This document shows, piece by piece, positions 16,894 through 51,832 of a DNA stretch of 64,000 bases. Numbering within the stretch: position 1 is the stretch's first letter; each line of letters begins with the position of its first letter. The DNA comes from Prostheceraeus crozeri (lineage: Eukaryota > Platyhelminthes > Polycladida > Euryleptidae): assembly GCA_907163375.1 (NCBI GenBank), contig CAJQUW010004413.1:47587-111586 (forward strand), read 5' to 3'. The position numbers were made by a program, and so were the translations under genes. The notes beneath the pieces are model-generated. The model was given only the letters and a program-made list of their open reading frames with translations. It was not told where the DNA came from and ran no database searches.

Positions 16894-19409
16894 TCAAATA
16901 GATGCTCGGCATATGGTTGTCGCAGTGGCCTCGATCCACCAGAAAATGAGCAAGGAATTTCGTATCATGCCTATCCCCTAAATGAACCCGAGAGACTCCG
17001 ACTGTGGATATCCAGAAATCCCAGGAAAAACTTTACCCCCACAAAGCATTCCTACTTGTGTTCTCGACATTTCATACACACAGATTACGCTGAAGAGCGT
17101 CAGGATTCCAACAAAAACCGTGTGAAGAACCGATCTTCAAAACGAAAATTGAGGTTACTGAAAAAACGGCTGTTCCCAGTGTTTTTCCAAATGCACCGTC
17201 TTACCTCTCCACCGCCCCTTCTATTGAACGAATGACATCAGCCACCTCAAGCAAGAGATTGAAGCTTTCGAATGATCGCCTGGAAGTGAGAATAGAAGAA
17301 TTCATGGAGAGCGATCGCCTTTCTTCCCTAGCTGATCTTAAAGTGGCCGACAAACTGCGCAAGTGTTACGAGGAGACAATGAAAACCTTGAGGAAGGTAT
17401 CTTTGAATGTGGTCGGTATCTCGGTTGATAATGCGACTGTGAATCGGAAATTTCTTGTTGATCTCTGCGGAGGATAATTGCAATCCTACATTTTGGATCC
17501 AGTGACAGGGCAACCAATATTTCTTTCCTTCGATCCTGTCCATGGAATTAAGAACATTTACAACAATTTTCAGAAGAGACGAACCTTTACTTGTCCCCCT
17601 ATGCCTCACTACTTTCCGGATGGCTGTTCACCCAGCTTCGATCACATTGTTCAGCTATATGAACATGAACAATCAATGACCCTGAAAAAGGCTTACAAAT
17701 TGACGCCTGCAGTGCTTCAACCGAAAAGCATTGAGAAAACTTCGGTAAAGCTGGGACTGCGTATATTCTCTGAATCCACCAGGGATGCACTTGTGTATTA
17801 TTCGAGCACGGAGAGAAGCCATGGGTCGATACGGCGAACTTTATTTCGTTCGTAATCAAAATGTGGACAATTTTGAATGTCAAAACGCCGAACAAAGGAG
17901 AACACAAGCGCAACATCGCCGCAGACCCGGTTCGCCATGCGTCTGACTGGAAATTGGTGTTTCTTCAGGAGTTTTCCGAGTTTCTTCAGGTAAGACTACA
18001 GAAAATTTTGAGATGATGTATAATTCGTATGATTCATAATAATATTCTATAGTAAGATTCATAGTAATTCATATACCCGGTATTTTTTCCTTTACAAATG
18101 CAATATTCATTTATCGCATTCTGAGACATAGGCCTAACTGTACAACATACAATTTTGATGCGTTAGCATGCAGGTGTAGCTGTGCATGCGTAGGAATCTG
18201 ATTATGAAGCATGACTATTTTGAAATCAAATAATCATCGTAGGCCTTACGTGCTAGCTCCTTACATGATACGATCAGATAGATGGAATAGCGACGTATAC
18301 TAGACAGTCGCCACACAAGTGATATGAATATGCTGAATCATCAGGATTTGTGAATATACCGTACATGTCTAGCAAGACAAAATATTGCAAATGCATTATT
18401 GTTGATTTATTGCTATTTGATCATATTTGTCTATATTTTATTTACAATCTAAGAAATCCATCAATTTATTTTCCAGAGATGGGAAGATTCAAGGAAACCT
18501 GGTCTTTCAAAACAGACATTTCTCGCTCTTCGGGACACTTGTACTGCCTTGCCCCAGTGCTGTTACTATATGTTCACGCGCCTCGAATTTGATTATATTC
18601 TTCTTGGAAAACTGCAGTCCGATAACATTGAATATCGCTTCGGACATTACAGGCAGATCTCTGGAGCCAATTATTTCATTTCGGTCCGAGACATTGTGTA
18701 GAGTGAGCGCAAGATACGCGCGTTATCACTTCTCAAGTTCTCCAATGTCACCATACAAGATATTGATGCCGCCTTACAGGACCAGGGTGAAGAACAAGAC
18801 AAGGACATGCTGAAAATGGCGAGTGAAATTGGAGAGGCGCTTGAAATGGATTATGATCCAACCACTAGTGAGCAGAGCACAGTCTTGTTTGTCTGTGGTG
18901 CCATTTGCAGGAGTACATTGAACACAACAAAATGTGAATCGTGTAAAGAAATCTTGTGCCGAGATAACCGAAAGCTCATAGTTGATGTCGAGTCGAGTGC
19001 CGCTAATATTCCTGAGTCTGCATATGATTTCTACAACACTGTTAACCGTGGAGGTCTCATCAATCCAACAGATTTCGCGTTCAATGTGTGTCTCTTTTCC
19101 TTCTGCGTTTTTCAGGAACTGCAAAGCAATGCCATGATGAGGACTGCCTTGCTTCAGTCCACAAAGCAACGGCAACTCTTCCATCAAATTGTAGAATACG
19201 CCATGGATGAGTCGTTTTTCTCCGAAGTGATATTTGGACATGACATGTGTACCCATGGTCACAAGGTGTTTTCATATATTGTACAGAGATTTTTTAATAC
19301 CATGATGAAAGGATTGACCACGAATCTGACGATTGATGCTTCAACAGTAAAACAGAAGACCACTTGTTCCGACCGAAAAATTGCAAAAGTGAGCAATAAA
19401 AGAAACTGA
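16894..19409 (+). pseudogene. THAP-domain P-element transposase, decayed
   Basis: Two exons are inferred. The first holds a THAP zinc finger at 16,903-17,080 (CSAYGC ... YLCSRHF, a C2CH pattern) and the THAP box AVPSVFP near 17,168. After these come transposase segments GISVDNATVNRKF, FDPVHGIKNIYNNF, and KLTPAVLQPKSIEKTSVKL. An intron at 17,990-18,476 (gtaaga ... ttccag) separates the last exon. That exon has YRFGHYRQISGANYFISVRD, KIRALSLLKFS and a C-terminal cysteine cluster (CESC ... C). This order is typical of P/THAP9-type transposases, which cut and paste DNA in the nucleus. Breaks: frameshift near 17,130, TAA at 17,475, frameshift near 17,810, TAG at 18,699, and no clear start codon. 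Confidence 0.88.
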
Positions 19410-25749: not shown

Positions 25750-27593
25750 CAGTCCGTTTCACGCTATTAAGGACACTTGAAAAATGTTGTTTTTAAGCTT
25801 ATATACTTATTTATTTATTATAAAATAACAGATAGTTGCTTGCTATTTTTCAAATGACTTTCTGTGCATAAATACAAGATTATTATACTGAAAAGAAGCC
25901 ATTAAAAAGATAAAACAACATTTATTTGACATTATTTACAACAATATTTGACAACATTTACTGTACAACTCTTCAATGCATGATTAATCAATATTCCCTC
26001 CAATTGCCATCGCAGTAGGTGTGTTGTACACGCCACCATTACACGCACCCATCCTTGCATAATGTCTGCATCTCAACATAATACTTCGTTTTTCAGAAAG
26101 CATTATCGGCTGACAGTATTCTCTGACACCCTTCTCCTATAGGCGAATGCACATTTAGCGCAATTGTCTAATACTTGCCTCTCTCTATCTCTCTCTTGCC
26201 TAGAAGCGTGATTTATTAAGGTGAAGTTTTTACTGATAGTCATTGAGTGAATCATGGGTAGGCGAACGGATCTTTCAACTGAGACTGTGGCGCAGATCAA
26301 GATATTGCTAAGTGAAGGGGTGTTTAGTTTGCGTGAAATAGCAGCAAGGTGCCATGTGAGTAAATCTAGTATGGAAAGAATAAAGAAGGAGCAAGAAGAG
26401 GGAAGAGAAGCTCACATCAATCGGCATCGCAGGGGCCAACAACGAATCTCAAGTGCTACTGATGATCGTTCACTCCTTAGAAAAGCCAGAGCCAGCACTT
26501 CCAGTTCTTTAAATGACCTGCGACAATCTTGGGAGGAGTCAGGAGTAACCGCTTCCAAAACCACAGTTTATAGGCGCCTAAAGAATGCAGGTTACAAGTC
26601 TGTGAAACCTCGGAGAATCCCCATCCTGACGCCTGCAATGAAGAGAAAGCGCCTTGCATCTGCTATGGAGCATCGCCACTGGACTGTGGAAGATTGGAGA
26701 AAGGTATTTGGAGCATTTCTTTTTAAAAAATAATACTTTTTATTCAAAATTTTTAATTAAAAAATTTTTATTGTGTTTCAGGTAGTATTCAGTGATGAGA
26801 GCTCCTTTGAAGTGCGGCCAACATCATCTCAAGGAAGAGTCTGGGCATCTCCTAATGCTGCCTGATCAACAGTTCGGCAAGCCAGGCATCCCATCAAGAT
26901 TATGGTGTGGGGTATTATCAGTTTCCATGGTGCAGGGAGGCCTCACCTCGTGGAGAGATCGATGAATCAGGTCCAGTATCTCCGGGTTCTTCAGCAGATG
27001 GCTGAATGGTTTCCGGCGGGCGATGGTGTCTTCCAGCAAGACAAAGCTCCTGCCTATGCTGCCAAACGATGCCAGGAGTACCTCCAGCAGCAGCGAATTC
27101 GAGTCCTTGAATGGCCAGGTAATTCTCCTGACCTGAACTGCATAGAGAACTTGTAGGCCATCATCAAGAGGAAGCTGGCAAAGGATGGTGGCTCTCGAAC
27201 GGCCAATGAACTCTCAGTGAAGGTGATTCGCATATGATATCATGATGCAGCACTCCCTGATATCCTGCATGGTTTGGTGGACTCAATGCCTCGAAGAATT
27301 GAGTCGGTTATCACAGCTAGAGGAGGACCTACCAAGCACTGATTTATGTGTTATTTTCTGTATGTTTTTCATGACACACATCTTTATGGCAACACATCTT
27401 CATGTTGATATTCAAATAAATGTTGTTTTATCTTTTTAATGACTTCTTTTCATTATAATAATCTTGTATTTATGTATAGAAAGTCATTTGAAAAATAGCA
27501 AGCAACTATCTGTTATTTCATAATAAATAAATTAGTATATAAGCTTAAAAACAACATTTTTCAACACTGTCCCTAATAGTGTGAAACGGACTG
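25750..27593 (+). mobile_element. Tc1-like transposon, 1.84 kb, long TIRs
   Basis: TIRs of about 180 bp lie at 25,750-25,929 and 27,412-27,593, starting CAGTCCGTTTCACGCTATTA. TA follows the right end. The left flank reads CA instead of TA, so one target copy is mutated. The paralogous arm at about 30,490 has the unoccupied sequence (CTAATGCATATTGCGGCATC). It encodes one DD34E transposase with a small intron, now broken. Confidence 0.92.
26254..27336 (+). pseudogene. Tc1-like transposase (DD34E), three stops
   Basis: Starts MGRRTDLSTETVAQIK and has a helix-turn-helix DNA-binding half (SLREIAARCHVSKSSMERIK; TASKTTVYRRLKNAGY). A 78-bp intron at 26,704-26,781 (gtattt ... gtttcag) joins WRK to VVFSDESSFEV. 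The catalytic triad is D of FSDE, D of FQQDKAPAY, then 34 residues to E of CIENL. Tc1 enzymes excise and insert at TA. In-frame stops: TGA at 26,863, TAG at 27,154 (where family members have Trp after ENL) and TGA at 27,235. All fit single transitions, so the copy died by point mutation and not deletion. Confidence 0.92.
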
Positions 27594-31069: not shown

Positions 31070-33209
31070 CCGTAAACTGGGGTAATTTGGAACGGGTTTT
31101 CAGATATTTAATTATTTTTCGCAGCAACTAAAGCTTATTTTTGTTTCTCGCTCTAAATGAACCGCAAACTTATCTTTCTTGATTAGAATGCATTTTCAAA
31201 ATATAAATAATGTGAATATTAGATCAATAAAATCACCTAGAACAAAGACTAATGATTTTCAAAACAATTGGGGTAATTCGGAACATTGATTTATTTTCGA
31301 TTTAAAATAAACTTCATGTACTCAAACATGAAAACGAAGATAATATATCACTCACACTTCATACAGATATAGTATGGGTCTTGACTACTATTGTTGCATG
31401 AACCACAGTACCAGTGGTGGCATGCAATACAGCGAATCCAATCAGGACCCTGGTACTGACTGAACCGAGAACTGCATCCATTGAATAGGTCATCTTCCTC
31501 ATCGGATGATGGTACATCTCTCTCTCTCTCTTGGTAAGTTGGACGCTGCTGCAAACGTAGATGGTCGATCTGAATACTGAATTGCTCGACCTGGAACGAC
31601 CTTTGCTCCTCGACCAGACTTTCGAGTACCGGCACCAGCTTTTCTGTTCTCCCGCAGAATGCCAATAAGAACAGAATCTAACTTTCGGCCTATTTCATCT
31701 GAGGCTTTCATTCCAGGTAAACGCTTGATGGGCTCATCCGGATTTCAAGGAACAAGACCACATGCTCGAAAACCAGATCTCAGATTGTCACCACCATGAA
31801 TTTTAGCCTTTTGCCAAAGCTGACTTAACAAGACTGGAAAGACAGTCTTTTGTATTACACCTTTCTGTCTTGTTTCTTTTCGATAATTGTCCAAGATCTC
31901 TCTCCATAACATTTTGAATGATCTGAAAACAGCCACATCAAGTGGCTGCATCAGATGTGTTGAATTTGGAGGAAAGGTGGCGAAATAAATATTGTTCTCT
32001 CTGGCTAGTTGAATCACTTCAGGGCAGAAGTGACTGCCCAGATTGTCGCCGAGCAAGAGTTTCGGACTATTCGTGGTGCTTACTCTCGGGAGAAATAGTT
32101 TTTTGAACCACATCAGGAAAGTGTCCATTTCAAACCATCCGGACCGGGTTGAAGAATATTGCGCACCGGTAGGCCCACCTTGAGCCCAACCTTCGTACAT
32201 GTTTTGAGCTTTGTAACACACAAGTGGCGGAAGAAGATCTCCAGCTGCATTGCCACACACCATGATGGATACATTAGATTTAGAATGTTCGCGTACCAGT
32301 TCGACTCTTCTTGTTCCGCGCCTCACGAGCACTTTCTTATTTCCAGGATCGTCACTCAACGCCGTTTCGTCGTAGCTATAAAAGTTCTGCGGCAATATTT
32401 CACCAGCTTTGTCCAGCTCAGAAAAGAATGCGTCTATGTCACATTTTCCGATTGCAGCACGTGATCGTTTAATATTTCCAGCAACTCGACCCACCATGTC
32501 ATTCCGTTGCATGAATCCGCGATTGAAGTCATATCCAGGATAATTGTCATTGAAATAAGACACTGATCTCCCTATCGAGTCAAGATATCTTTTGATGAGG
32601 ATTTGTACATCAGTCACACTAAATCCAACACCCCAATCAGCCATTTGTTGTAGAGTGTCAGCAATAATAGCTTCTTCTTCAGTCGAGAAAGTTTTAGGAC
32701 GTCCAACAGAACCAGTCCCATTCACATGACGCCAAAGAGTTGTTTTAGATACGCCATAAACTTGTGCTGCATTATGAATAGACATGCCTTGCGTAACGGC
32801 TTCTATAGCCTGGTTCATGAGTTGCGTACCGGCATGGGAAACGACGGTCTTTCTCTGATACGTTCTAGGCATTGTTAACTACCAAGAGAGTCACAGAAGT
32901 TTACTAAGTCACACAGTGTCTGAAGAATGAGTGAGTAACTGATGATGAAAGCTTGTCTACTACATGTAGATTCAAATCGAATTGCATTGGATTGATACGA
33001 TAGCTACGGGTCACAGGTGTATTGAATTTAAATTTTCAAATTTGAGTTAATTCTCTCGCGATCGCATTAATTCGCTATGCATAGATATCTTAATAACAAC
33101 AATTGAGAGAGTATCATAGCCATCACAGCATCCTGAAATACTTGAAAATTGATTTAATTAGCAAAATCTGCAGAAACATATTAACGTTCCGAATTACCCC
33201 AGTTTACGG
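31070..33209 (-). mobile_element. pogo/Tigger-like transposon, 2.14 kb
   Basis: TIRs start CCGTAAACTGGGGTAATT and match in inverted form over about 25 bp with one difference. They are flanked by TA at 31,068-31,069 and 33,210-33,211. A second copy of the TIR core, GGGGTAATTCGGAAC, lies inside the left end at about 31,269 and is likely a second transposase site. The transposase gene reads on the minus strand. Confidence 0.92.
31348..32872 (-). pseudogene. pogo-like transposase with psq HTH, DD35D core and C-terminal PHD-like finger
   Basis: The first 375 codons are intact (32,872 to 31,745). Residues 1-55 (MPRTYQRKTV ... GVSKTTLWRHV) form a psq-type helix-turn-helix. The DDE_1 core has D168 (YSYDETALSD), D276 (LLLGDNLGSHF) and D312 (QPLDVAVF), giving a 35-residue D-D spacing. 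A TGA at 31,745 interrupts the usual GLVP-x-NPD-KRLPG motif, which continues in frame. A frameshift near 31,650-31,680 then leads into a tail with RCIACHHWYCGSC and ICMKC, a PHD-like zinc finger seen in some invertebrate pogo enzymes. One stop and one shift suggest recent inactivation. Confidence 0.92.
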
Positions 33210-45268: not shown

Positions 45269-46786
45269 CTTCATCAGTTATTCATAACAGGCATCTTCGC
45301 AAGTGGTATTTTAAGTACGAACTGCACTTAATGTAAACCAAGCTTTAGACAACGTTCACTGAGGTTCACTGAGATACAGTCGTCAAATGGACACATCATT
45401 TTCGCTGGTCAACTCCTCATGATCTCAAATAACTGAACACGCTTGAAGTGAAGCTATGATCCGATTCGTCGAATTCAGACTTGAACTCAATCAATGTTCA
45501 ATGGGAAAATGCGTTTCTTGTCCTGTGGAGCAGTTTTGGCGGGCATCGTCATTGTTCTGAAATGCCTTGTTTAGACCAAAACATGGACACAACGCAGTTT
45601 ATTTCTGCGATGACAGCAACTGTTGAGTTGACACAACTCTCTGTTTGATGCCGGTAGATGCCTTTTGCTGACAAAACCGCGGTAAATTTGGGTAGCGTTG
45701 TGAAATAGCGCATCAGAGACTTAGAGTACATCAGAGTACATAGCACTGCGCAGTATTCGCAGTATTTGCGCCGTGTGTCTTTTGCTCAACACATCAAAAG
45801 TGCCATGCGCCATTTGCTCTTGGCACATCATCACCAGGCTTCGATATTTAAACCAATTTTTCATTTAGCTAGATGACTTTGATATTAATTTTGCATCTGT
45901 CGAAGTTAGACAGTTATAGGTTGCACCATGCGCGATTACACGAGCGCGAAGTACGAGTTTAATCGAGAGTGGTGCAACCAAATAATTAAATTGTTTAAGC
46001 GTGTCACTTTGCTAGAACTGCAAGCTGATTCAAAAGATGGCACATGCAGGAACTTACTAAGTGGGTAAATAGAAATGTTTAATACCTTGCAGAGACAGGA
46101 AAAATAGTCGTGCGTTACTGGCGGATTGCTGTGAATTCCTTCTAAATGCTCCGATTGCCACGATTCCTTCTGATTCGAAGAATTCTGATCATTGCGCAAA
46201 AATTTTCTAAATAATATGGGTACTTCCGTTTATCATTAAAAAGTTAGCAGGCGCACGAAAAAACGTTCACAAGCTTCTCTATAGAACTTGACATCGACTG
46301 TGTCTCTTTGCGATGTTCCGGTTGATAACAATCACTGAAACATCGCACATATTTGGCGTGTTTAATGTTGAACTGGCTGCTTATTGTTCAATTGCTATGG
46401 CATTATGTCAGCAGATTGCGCCATTTCGTAGGCTTTACATGTTCCAATGCTTCCTCTCTAGTCAAACAGAAGAAGACACGACCTGTCCAATTCTGTGGAT
46501 CCACCAGATTTAACCAATTTCTATGCATTTGCAAAAAAATATCTGGAATATATGCTTCACAATTCAATAATCAGATCCAAAGTGAATGTTTCATAGAAAG
46601 AGGCTCTTTGACTTTGTTCCCTGACACAACAAAAAGATGAACATTTCAAAGATCAGAAGAACCGTCTGAACTGCTCATGTTGAGGCGGAATACTCTCTGG
46701 ATAGTGATTGTCTAAAGAGTAAACAATTAAAGGCGCATTCAATTGATCAATTTCAATACAGAACCCTCATTCCCCCATCATAGCAT

Positions 46787-47303
46787 CACAGGTAGGTGGA
46801 AAGTGCTGAATGTCGAAAAAAATTGCTAATACTCAAATCATGTATTACAGCCTTTGTATATCCCTACTATGCGCAAAAACGAAAAAATGAAAAAAATCGG
46901 CAATCTATGTAAAGAGAAAATACAAAAAAATAAGAATTAAATATCAAAAAAATCAAAAAAATAAAAAAAAATTATTTCTAGTCACCAGACAAATTGCTAA
47001 TGTTAAATACCTATATCAGACTAATTGTAGGGTTGTTTTATACACATGAACATAAATATTGCAAAAATCGTTGGAGTAAATATTGAGAAAAATGTATAAA
47101 GGAAAGCAAAAAGCACAAAAAAGCAAAAATAATTTTTTATGCCTCCCGAACAATTGCTAATGCTTAATATCTGTATTGGAGCTATTGTAAAGTTGTTCTA
47201 TACTAAAAAACGTAAAGCTAGACAAATTGGCGGTGTAAATATTGAGAAGTTGACAAAATATAAATAAGAAAAATACACGTAGTTTTGAAATAAGTTCTTG
47301 CTT
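46787..47303. repeat. Left TIR of the RAG1-like element, with three sub-repeats
   Basis: Pairs with 50,215-50,696. ATTGCTAAT recurs at about 46,822, 46,993 and 47,153 (spacing 171 and 160 bp), each followed by related sequence including CTATTGTA/AATTGTAG and AAATATTGAGAA. The first 7 bases, CACAGGT, then 22 bases, then an A-rich run recall the heptamer-spacer-nonamer layout of RSSs. That comparison is inference. Confidence 0.85.
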
Positions 47304-47800
47304 GTCTAGCTTTTCGTTGTAGCCTATACATATTCTGATATATATTGCAAATATGTATGCAATATTGCATACAAAGATACCTAAACTTAAGTAAATTGTC
47401 ATTTTATTAAACGAAATTGAATAAAAAGGGTGTTATTACAAACAATAATTCACGAAGAAAAGTTTCCATATTGCATTAACGTGTAGTTAAGTCTTGTCTG
47501 ATAATGAGATAAACTTATGATTTCTATCTGAAGCGTGTGAAAATTTTCAGTTTTAAAATCGAAGCACGCACACGACGTGGACTCTATATATTACAGTTTG
47601 TAGATGAAAGATATCGGGCAGATGAATAGATATCTAGGAGCTCATGGCTTAACGTTATATACAACGTAAGGCTTCCCGGAGATCTATTTATAGCATCAAG
47701 AAAAGCTGTGGGAATCCCTTTGCATAAAATAACTTTACCTTAATGCATGTAGACTACACACCTAACTTCGCTCTCAGTTTACTCTGTCGTTGTCGGCATC

Positions 47801-49906
47801 ATGTCGGAATTTCATCTGAAGAACTGTGGACGAGTTTGTTTACTTTGCATTGGTAAAACAAAGAAGATGTTTAATATTACGTCACGATCTTGGGACATTT
47901 TGCAAAAGTATTTCATCGATGGATTTCAACGAAACGACGAAAGGTTTCCAACCGTGTTATGCAGCAATTGCTCCAAAGTTATTAGTGAGTATGGTCGAGG
48001 CATTTTCAATCGTACTGTAAATTTAATCGACTTTTCTAAACTCGAAATTCCTCGCACTCGAAGTGCAGCATCCGGTTCTACCTGTGGCTGCAAGATATGT
48101 GCTGTAGCTACTTCTGTTCCTAAAAATATCAGTGATTCGATATCCAAAGAACCTATACCTCACTGACGGCTAGCTGGACGTCCCTCTTCGTTTTCCAATG
48201 AGCCTTGTTCTTCGTCGTCTTCTACGGTCAAACAAAGACCCATCACATTGTGTAATTTATGTCTTTCTACTTAAGGAAGAAGTTCTTCGCATGCATGCAA
48301 TAAAACAACAAGAATTGATAATTTACGACAGCTTGCAAATGTATCGCCAACTTCAAAGGAAAAATTGACATCATCATTGATTCGTGAAAAACGTCAATCA
48401 TCTGATAATCCATCGGAAGTTACCGCTCTAAACTTTGCATCTACGACTGGCAAGCCCTTAACTATTACCATTGGATCACCGCCTGTCCCAAAAGTTAGAA
48501 AAAGTACATCGAGCTCCGTGATATCAGAAATTCAATCTAATTTAGATCTCTCCAATCAGCAAACAATCAAACTGGCTGGACATATACGGATCGCATCATC
48601 TGAACGTAAATGTATTGAACCAAACTTGAGAAATGAGCTGAAAAGTCTTAATCATCGTCTAGACGGATTTTTTCGGTTGAATCAAATCGATTTCTTTCAA
48701 AAACTTCAGTTGAACAGAATGAATTCGTTAATCGTCCATTTGTATTCTGCAGTGATCTAAATGGATTCATTAATTCAATTCAACAGCATCGACGTAAGTC
48801 CTACCAATTTGCAAAAATTGGACTGGATGGTGGTGGAGGGTTCATGAAGGTCAGTATTACTCTCCATAATTGCAATGAAGACGATGAAAATGAGCCTTCT
48901 GAGAGGCAACAGCGATTCTCTTATAGAGATGGAATAGCAAACAAAAGTAAAGATACAGGGGTGAAAAAGTCCTTTGTCATTGGTCTGGTGCCAGACCTAC
49001 CCGAAAATTACTTCAATATCATCTTGTGTTGGGTCAAGTTAGGCCTAAATGATATTTCAATTGAAAACACTATTGCGGCAGATCTAAAGTTAGCAAACAT
49101 TATTATTGGCATAATGGGACATGGTAGTAACCACCCATGTACATGGTTTGATGCCTCTAGAGCTGACATACTAGCCGGAAATTGTGGCTCACTGCGAACA
49201 CTTAGAAACCTGCGTAATCTTCATTGGCAATGGAGAAATTCTGGCAGCTGAACTACTAAAGCCTAACTAAGCTAACTAAGCTATTCTAAAGCTCAACTAC
49301 TAAGTTATTCATGGATGTATGATTAAAGGTGAAGATGATAAATTGATTCTTGACGTCATTGCGCCACCAGAGCTTCATTTGATGATTGGAGCGATCACAC
49401 ATATGTTCAAAGGCCTGAAAGAGGTATGGCCAGAGGCTGATGAGTGGGCAAATCGATGCAAAGTGAATCAATTACCATACCATGGCGGAGTCTTCAATGG
49501 AAACTCGTGTAAAGCTCTCCTGAAAAATATTCAACTTTTGAATGACTTAAACTGTCCGCGAACTGATTTCTTTGATGCTTTCCTATCATTTTGAAATGTC
49601 GTAGATACATGCTTTGGAGCATCACTTTCTGAGGACTACGTCGAACACATCAATGATTTTCATTCGAAATTCGAAGTTTTAAATCTTCGCATAACTTCTA
49701 AAATCCATACAATATTCCACCATGTTCCCCAATTTTGCGAGCGCCATATCCCGAATGGTTTAGGAGTATGGTCGGAACAGATCTCTGAGTCCATTCGCAG
49801 TGATTTTTTGAAGACCTGGTCACGATATAAAGTAGCTCCAAGTAATGACCGATACGACCAGCAACTTCTCAGTGCTGTAAGAGACCATGCAAGCAAACAT
49901 ATTTGA
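47801..49906 (+). pseudogene. RAG1-like / Transib-type transposase, decayed
   Basis: The N-terminal 121 codons (MSEFHLKNCGRVCLLC...) have zinc-type pairs C13/C16, C54/C57 (LCSNC) and C97/C100 (CGCKIC). An LCNLCLST ... HAC motif follows. This is the cysteine order of the RAG1 N-terminal region. The core then reads FAKIGLDGGGGFMKVSI, HPCTWFDASRADI, PPELHLMIGAITHMF, and HHVPQFCERHIPNGLGVW followed by SEQISES. RAG1 and Transib have D-G, ICTLCDA/CPICGA, LHCDIG/LHAWIR and SEGNES/GENASES in that order. I infer the Asp near 48,826 and the Glu at 49,774 as catalytic positions. The middle Asp is not clear (LHLM where RAG1 has LHCD). Breaks: TGA 48,164, TAA 48,272, frameshifts near 48,705 and 49,200-49,300, TGA 49,592. 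Confidence 0.72.
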
Positions 49907-50214
49907 GTGTGCTCTGATATAATTGCTTCTATTTTAAGCTAGCCTACAGACTGAGTAAATTCAGCAAGCTGGCATTTTGAATCATGTGTAGCTATGATTT
50001 AGTTCTTGTCAGGAAGGTAAACTTCTAATACATAAACATCCTTCAATTTCGATTACATTGGTATTTTTACTTGCATATTAGATATTCCGGAAGTGAACGC
50101 TGGGCATATAATTGAGTATTCATTGAATCATATACGGGTGTGTAGTTAAATAAATAAAGAATACCCGAATAAATAAAATCATAAAACAAAATTTGAATTA
50201 TTAATTTATAAGTA

Positions 50215-50696
50215 GCAAGGAAAGCAAAAACTTATTTCAAAACCACTGTATTTTTCTTATTTATATTTTATCAACTTCTCAATATTTACACCGCCAATTT
50301 GTCTAGCTTTACGTTTTTTAGTATAGAACAACTTTACAATAGCTCCAATACAGATATTAAGCATTAGCAATTGTTCGGGAGGCATAAAAAATTATTTTTG
50401 CTTTTTTGTGCTTTTTGCTTTCCTTTATACATTTTTCTCAATATTTACTCCAACGATTTTTGCAATATTTATGTTCATGTGTATAAAACAACCCTACAAT
50501 TAGTCTGATATAGGTATTTAACATTAGCAATTTGTCTGGCGACTAGAAATAATTTTTTTGTATTTTCTCTGTACATAGACCGCCGATTTTTTTCATTTTT
50601 TCGTTTTTGCGTATAGTAGGGATATACAAAGGCTGTAATACATGATTTGAGTATTAGCAATTTTTTTCGACATTCAGCACTTTCCACCTACCTGTG
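50215..50696. repeat. Right TIR of the RAG1-like element
   Basis: Inverted match to the left TIR. ATTAGCAAT marks occur at about 50,363, 50,523 and 50,652. The terminal GCACTTTCCACCTACCTGTG is identical in inverted form to the left end. Confidence 0.85.
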
Positions 50697-51059
50697 AGCA
50701 CTAGCAATTGAAAGTTGCACTAGCATATTTGGCGTGTTTAATGTTGAACTGGCTGCTTATTGTTCGATTGCTATGGCATTATGTCAGCAGACTGCGCCAT
50801 TTCGTAGGCTTTACATGTTCCAATGCTTCCTTTCTAGTCAAACAGAAGAAGACACGACTTGTCTAATGCTGTGGGTGCAACCAAATTTTCGCCAAAACTG
50901 ATATCATTTTCCTCGATTTATGAGTTGTATGAATCATAGACATTGCACCGCATGGCCAATGGCATCTGAATGCCTATCTTAACTATCGGAGGGCAGATTT
51001 TCAACAGGCTGGTTTGTCAGTTTGTCATAGTGCCATAACCGGTAGCAAACTTCATGATT

Positions 51060-51832
51060 AACTTTCAATTGCTAGCGCTATGATGGGGGAATGAGGGTTC
51101 TATATTGAAATTGATCAATTGAATGCGCCTTTAATTGTTTACTCTTTAGACAATCACTATCCAGAGAGTATTCCGCCTCAACATGAGCAGTTCAGACGGT
51201 TCTTCTGATCTTTGAAATGTTCATCTTTTTGTTGTGTCAGGGAACAAAGTCAAAGAGCCTCTATCTATGAAACATTCACTTTGGATCTGATTATTGAATT
51301 GTGAAGCATATATTCCAGATATTTTTTTGCAAATGCATAGAAATTGGTTAAATCTGGTGGATCCACAGAATTGGACAGGTCGTCTCTTCTTCTGTTTGAC
51401 TAGAGATGAAGCATTGGAACATGTAAAGCCTACGAAATGGCGCAATCTGCTGACATAATGCCATAGCAATTGAACAATAAGCAGCCAGTTCAACATTGAT
51501 CACGCCAAATTGTCCGAAGTTTCAGTGACTGTTATCAACCGGATCACACAGCAAAGAGACACAGTCGATGTCAAGTTCTACAGAGAAGTTTGTGAACGCT
51601 TTTTCGAGCGCCTTTAATATTGGACGGAAGTACCCATATTATCTAGAAAATTTTGCGCAATGATCAGAATTCTTCGAATCTGAAGATATCGTGGCGATCG
51701 GAGCATTTTGAAGCAATTCACAGCAATCCGCAAGTAACGCACGACTATTTTTCCTATCTCTGTAAGGTATTGAACATTTGAATCAGTTTGCCCTTCTAGC
51801 GAAGTGATACGGTTAAGCAGTCTAATTCTGTG
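51060..51832 (-). mobile_element. X-family element, copy 6, with the same 3' extension as copy 5
   Basis: An X element at 51,364-51,832 is read on the minus strand (CACAGAATTAGACTGC ... GTCCAATTCTGTG). It is followed, down to 51,060, by the same ~300 bp extension found after 46,497 in copy 5. It holds the unoccupied RAG1-like insertion site (51,075-51,079). With copy 5 it forms an inverted pair about 5.9 kb across. Confidence 0.85.

Follow-up and report, generated by a model that had tools for sequence, protein, structure and literature searches.

The 3,910-bp element that spans positions 46787-50696 of a 64,000-nucleotide stretch of the genome of the polyclad flatworm Prostheceraeus crozeri (contig CAJQUW010004413.1; the whole stretch is referred to as the window) is, on the features of its ends, its transposase and its relatives in the same genome, very probably a decayed Chapaev-type cut-and-paste DNA transposon of the CMC superfamily. 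The initial annotation had taken it for a RAG1/Transib-like transposon with a 5-bp target duplication, i.e. for a RAG1-related lineage with terminal inverted repeats of about 0.5 kb and no RAG2 partner, informative on the origin of RAG. Little of the interest of that claim remains, as the element fits known Chapaev and the 5-bp RAG-type signature fails for the family; since the hallmarks of Chapaev are present, neither the long inverted repeats nor the absence of a RAG2 partner makes a new RAG lineage. What stays useful is that one genome supplies Chapaev-type transposases with open frames in large number and variety, along with their ends.

Chapaev elements have been described as having duplications generally of 3-4 bp, invariable CAC/GTG ends and a transposase with C(2)C, LH and H(4)H motifs (PMC4079192), and are regarded as a remote clade within the Transib superfamily, their Chapa domain being shared by RAG1 (PMC4411706). 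Compared by published description, the element and its relatives agree with them in the CAC...GTG termini, the duplications of 3-4 bp (mostly 4), the combination of C(2)C, LH and H(4)H, and an N-terminal cysteine-rich domain (PMC4079192, PMC4411706). The 3-bp TWA duplication of the Chapaev3 subgroup (PMC4079192) is not found, the duplications being mostly of 4 bp and of varied sequence. In a paper of 2025, CACTA, Mirage, Chapaev and Transib are grouped, with CA..TG ends and duplications of 2-5 bp (PMC12730594). A RAG1-like catalytic core is expected of the group to which Chapaev belongs.

Termini and target-site duplications

The left (46787..47311, +) and right (50214..50696, -) terminal inverted repeats are 89.9% identical over 525 aligned columns when the window is compared with itself by BLAST, the right one being placed also by comparison of the ends; the outermost 60 nt are the same at both ends, which read CACAGGTAGGTGG. 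The inverted CACAGGT termini and the arms of about 0.5 kb of the initial annotation are thereby borne out. So are the flanking AGCAT (46782..46786) and AGCAC (50697..50701), i.e. a target-site duplication with one mismatch in five positions, assigned from the flanks and from unfilled sites and, on the right, also from the family count. The element was inserted into a copy of a different repeat, which is abundant in the genome (760 first-look candidates, 40 of them scored), and an unfilled paralogous target site, CATCATAGCGCTAGCAATTG, lies on the minus strand at 51060..51090, found by self-comparison and in aligned copies of the flanking repeat; it includes the empty AGCGC site noted earlier near 51,075, which reads CATCAT-AGCGC-TAGCAATTG. 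Short stretches from 13 further copies of the flanking repeat were aligned together with this minus-strand paralogue. The element is absent from all 13, of which 12 run through the site into recognizable flank, the sequence of the other (L151) diverging just past the insertion site; the site itself reads AGCA followed by A or C in eight copies, AACAG in four and AGGAC in one. Since copies of the repeat that are free of the element continue through the site, the element is a genuine insertion at AGCA(C).

Relatives were sought in the repeat-rich, 2.05-Gb assembly (14,165 contigs), where a genome-wide search with the left terminal repeat gave at least 40 scored matches, with 65 candidates, and one with a core protein piece at least 150 scored matches of 2,987 candidates (E ≤1.0e-35). 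The ends were read in 32 copies, namely 13 of family A (the window's own), 11 of subfamily B and eight others, labelled C, C2, C3, D, E, F and G (two copies). An exact 4-bp duplication is present in 24 of the 32, one of 5 bp in a single copy (L068, AAACC) and one of 3 bp in another; the remaining six show no exact duplication, the window copy being counted among them because its 5 bp carry a mismatch. Random re-pairing of the flanks (2000 times) gave 4-bp duplications in 0.85 copies on average and in six at most, against the 24 observed. The 24 exact duplications vary in sequence and by hand count contain 46 G+C in 96 positions, moderately above the 37% of the window. Left out of the count were eight of the 21 family-A loci (20 and the window), for which only one end was found, the subfamily B loci L100 and L107 (left end not found), L125/L126, with ends not resolved and the right A-run out of register, and the palindromic L158/L159; L138 and L139 have no inverted repeat and gave no ends. 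CAC stands at all seven aligned subfamily ends, single ends being mutated in L071, L074 and L134. As a signature of the family, the 5-bp duplication therefore cannot be maintained: counting lengths over many copies had been suggested in the initial annotation itself, and the 4-bp class, which it had named as evidence against a 5-bp Transib/RAG enzyme, predominates.

The 5 bp of the window copy may themselves be a local accident within the Chapaev placement, the insertion having also produced a 4-bp AGCA, with one base gained later beside the left end. We rate this just short of an even chance: 4 bp is the norm of the family, AGCA with A or C recurs in those eight of the 13 other unfilled sites, and 4 bp with one inserted base costs the same as 5 bp with one substitution, whereas the independent and exact 5-bp duplication of L068 makes occasional 5-bp events plausible.

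Membership of the Transib/RAG1-like lineage proper, with 5-bp duplications and RAG2 lacking or lost, is not supported and appears very improbable. The CAC ends, the core motifs in RAG1 order and the 5 bp of the window copy and of L068 would agree with it, but the exact 4-bp duplications come from several subfamilies, whereas duplications are almost always of 5 bp in RAGL elements, as for Transib (PMC7204232), and 5 bp is the typical length in Transib (PMC4411706), a length found exactly in one of the 32 copies here. Furthermore, canonical Transib elements are described as being without N-terminal domains (PMC4411706), whereas the present transposases carry N-terminal cysteine clusters that appear Chapa-like, and RAG1 is missing from the matches of a profile search of the PDB. 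Transib is alike in its RAG1-related DDE core, in the absence of RAG2 and in having ends where about 20-22 bp lie between CAC and an A-rich block (PMC8355894). RAGL elements, ProtoRAG included, share with the present element the order of the core motifs, as does RAG1 itself; they differ in carrying the RAG1L and RAG2L gene pair and in their 5-bp duplications, the element having one gene and its family mostly 4 bp. In the window element no gene was seen apart from the transposase: the listed open reading frames of at least 80 aa are all pieces of it, except for a frame of 81 aa that overlaps the left arm, though whole elements were not scanned for kelch or PHD domains.

The transposase and its remote relation to RAG1

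The coding sequence of the window copy consists of six pieces, all on the plus strand, interrupted by in-frame stops at about 48164, 48272 and 49592 and by two frame breaks. The N-terminal part (47801..48163), read from the translation of the open reading frame, contains a CxxC...CxxC...CxCxxC pattern resembling the Chapa/RAG1 N-terminal zinc domain and ends at an in-frame stop; its continuation (48167..48271) bears an AT-hook-like GRP motif, recognized by its invariance in the relatives, and ends in the same way, while the frame of the third piece (48275..48757, again read from its translation) is broken near the end. The catalytic core is distributed over 48652..49248, with the first Asp (LDGGGG), the second Asp (ADLKLAN) and a damaged C(2)C motif (CTWF), the second Cys of which is substituted (placed by comparison with RAG1 and with the relatives), 49304..49591, with the LH motif (PPELHL; placed by the alignment of relatives), and 49595..49903, with H(4)H and the catalytic Glu (WSEQISES; placed by its match to RAG1). 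The order of the catalytic motifs is the same as in RAG1, as had been claimed, the gene itself being a pseudogene: the window copy is full-length but decayed, its reading frame is lost and it would be inactive. The six pieces, searched separately at E values up to 5, gave zero Pfam matches, and the fold predicted for piece 48652-49248 alone was useless (mean predicted local distance difference test score 29.6).

Several relatives keep long open frames of 665-707 residues, with one transposase each, in which N-terminal cysteine clusters are followed by the GRP motif, a small C2HC-like motif and the DDE core. Complete copies of subfamily B measure about 3.25 kb, of which the transposase frame takes up about 2.05 kb and each arm about 0.33-0.36 kb or more; the inverted repeats of this group are several hundred base pairs long. 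Nine proteins were aligned unedited, with 36-55% identity to the first of them. Since L100/L107, L108/L114 and L110/L112 are pairs of close copies, about six lineages are represented; L110 stops early, and L112 is gapped internally. Among the invariant columns are D330, D414, C433 and C436 (C(2)C), L503 and H504 (LH), H613 and H618 (H(4)H) and the GRP at 122-124, the three motifs being kept in all nine proteins, as are the conserved cysteine clusters of the N-terminal region, which are presumably zinc-binding and Chapa-like. Two family-A loci, L062 and L069, have long frames of 946 and 820 residues, respectively, which may be insertions of other elements. Scans of viral contigs by relatedness and by DNA pattern revealed no relatives, the single stretch matched (L001) not being one; in prokaryote genomes the PPELHL pattern gave 48 stretches, in which, as in L001, the six pieces had no tblastn matches other than short chance ones.

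When five of the window pieces were each compared with mouse RAG1 (a sequence identical to that of the PDB chains) and with 2000 shuffles, piece 49595-49903 found its best match at RAG1 931-963, which includes H937, H942 and E962, and none of the shuffles was as good. Piece 48652-49248 matched best at 708-736, with D708 and C727 (79 shuffles as good), and no meaningful match came from the remaining three (228, 1853 and 200 shuffles as good), the piece with the LH motif failing to align at the LH of RAG1. A profile of the nine relatives was aligned by hhalign with mouse RAG1 over 221 columns (E 0.0064), colinearly from before D708 to past E962, taking in D708, C727/C730, the LH region, a common NGN motif, H937/H942 and E962. 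With the core columns only, the alignment covers 216 columns with a score of 32.7, which none of 150 shuffles equalled (best 25.2; reversed sequence 13.8). The spacing is also alike, D708-C727 in RAG1 and D414-C433 in the relatives being both 19 apart, and so is that of the His pair. The DDE core is thus colinear with that of RAG1, as for the wider RAG1/Transib/CMC clade.

The order of the N-terminal cysteines agrees with that of the RAG1 N-terminus. Compared with the latter, the N-terminal piece of the window was equalled by 34 of 1000 shuffles at gap penalties of 11/1 (63 with C, H and W fixed) and by nine (13 with these residues fixed) at the looser 8/1.

Several observations weigh against the placement in Chapaev or against kinship with RAG1. 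The probabilities that hhalign itself reports are low (5.9%; 7.4% and 13.3%, the latter for the core columns); RAG1 was missed in the PDB both when two of the six window pieces were searched by phmmer and when the nine-relative profile was used in hmmsearch; an N-terminal profile against the RAG1 N-terminus did no better than chance (43 of 150 shuffles as good), so that this resemblance is unproven; and no Pfam transposase family was matched. To these are to be added the 5-bp duplications of the window copy and L068 and the six of 32 copies, the window's included, with no exact duplication of 2-10 bp. Moreover, the assignment to Chapaev is made on published hallmarks rather than on a tree with Chapaev proteins.

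Since the profile search of the PDB missed RAG1 and the N-terminal profile was no better than shuffles, the kinship with RAG1 is regarded as remote and as based on the core, for which it is supported. The RAG1 relationship that had been proposed stands, therefore, as a distant one of the core, on the piece matches and on hhalign, while a place inside the RAG1/Transib lineage is, given the 4-bp duplications, unsupported. The least likely explanation of all is convergence, in an unrelated DDE superfamily, on CAC ends and some RAG1-like motifs. The silent Pfam models, the low overall identity to RAG1 and the low hhalign probabilities (5.9%, or 13.3% for the core) might be quoted for it, but a colinear core alignment that 150 shuffles did not match and the set of Chapaev hallmarks count against it. 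A further parallel is N-RAG-TP of Aplysia californica (Panchin and Moroz 2008), a transposon protein described as similar, in one region, to the N-terminus of RAG1; that its element is a Chapaev is our guess.

Two-part ends and the GRP motif

The part of the finding that is worth following is the layout of the ends. The subfamily ends consist of two parts, CAC and, after a variable stretch, an A-rich block that occupies positions 27-40 and reads TCGAAAAAAATTGC or nearly so; in the window element this block lies at 46813..46826 (+) on the left, at the same offset as in the subfamily ends compared, and at 50657..50670 (-) on the right. Among six subfamilies (A-F), found through their proteins or arms, the mean pairwise identity is 1.00 at positions 1-3, 0.47 at 4-26, 0.78 at 27-40 and 0.32 at 41-48; when G is added, the seven ends give 1.00, 0.46 and 0.75 for the same first three intervals, falling to 0.28 over 41-54; of the windows of 14 bases, the best begins exactly at 27. 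The G end is not independent evidence for the block, because it was found by searching for that spacing; its element encodes a relative of the same transposase (25-34% identity in the core, up to 46% at the C-terminus), and G-type ends elsewhere (L156/L157) show a 4-bp duplication, L153 itself showing none. The fit is imperfect, as C reads AAGAAAA, the A-run of F lies one base earlier and the end of L125/L126 was not fitted. Caution is also called for by the abundance of A-rich DNA in this genome, and, since the subfamilies are related, the shared block counts as one inherited trait and not as many observations.

Genome-wide, the pattern CAC-N23-TCGAAAAAA has 783 matches versus 524 for the reversed pattern, and with N20 there are 450 versus 343, excesses that are modest and inflated by repeats. 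Among the matches listed, inspection by eye gave at least nine inverted pairs closer than 8 kb for N23, five of the nine being subfamily B, and none for N20. One of the nine, CACTGGACC (C1101), was rejected as an element end, lying inside a longer palindrome. AATTGC occurs at 35, 206 and 366 of the left end of the window element and at 35, 165 and 325 of the right end, within internal subrepeats of about 130-170 bp of the inverted arms; near-copies of the A-rich block were not clearly above shuffles in any of seven arms from six subfamilies.

In the nine aligned proteins, 199-209 residues separate the GRP from the catalytic Asp that follows; three of the proteins have a further GRP closer to this Asp. 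In RAG1, the GGRPR hook touches the A-rich nonamer (PMC6941560). Its R391 stands 209 residues before D600, so that a GRP about 200 residues before the first catalytic Asp is another likeness to RAG1 and its RAGL relatives. For Transib ends, too, a heptamer and a nonamer-like block with a spacer of 20-22 bp between them have been described (PMC8355894); here, a spacer of 22 would precede the A-run, and the CAC with an A-rich block after a spacer also recalls the recombination signals with a 23-bp spacer. The layout of the ends and the placement of GRP may be either ancestral or coincidental. That CAC, a spacer of about 22-23 bp, an A-rich nonamer and a GRP reader predate Transib and RAG, having been present already in the ancestor that Chapaev, Transib and RAG share, is possible, if rather doubtful. 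In the literature seen, the origin of this layout and of its GRP reader is discussed for Transib, RAGL and RAG, and the Chapaev-type set would provide an outgroup for dating them; a search of the open-licence literature, beyond which other literature lies, found nothing on Chapaev together with a nonamer.

By family membership, transposition would probably proceed as follows. The transposase may bind both ends through the A-rich block at 27-40, recognizing them via the GRP motif, and would bring the two ends together; cleavage at the CAC terminus, by a chemistry assumed from the family, would then be followed by insertion at staggered nicks, usually 4 bp apart, yielding the 4-bp duplications.

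The flanking repeat and other elements

The arms of the repeat that harbours the element form a larger inverted repeat around it, at 46351-46784 and 51077-51510 and beyond (within 46000-46784 and 51077-51811). A 156-bp stretch of it (46348-46503) is also present, in direct orientation, at 50724-50879. Elsewhere in the window, a 235-residue open frame at 18702-19409 (+) had zero Pfam matches at E values up to 0.01, and a 160-residue frame at 26251-26733 (+), with helix-turn-helix domains of the Tc3 type (Pfam PF01498, E 6.5e-17), is a remnant of a Tc1-like transposase. An open frame of 377 residues at 31745-32878 (-) has Psq helix-turn-helix and DDE_1 domains in Pfam, and we take it to be a transposase of the pogo/Tigger type. 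Finally, the subfamily G element of L153 (C1120) contains, at 1900-2487, a 196-residue frame, apparently a nested insertion, which by eye resembles a mariner transposase.

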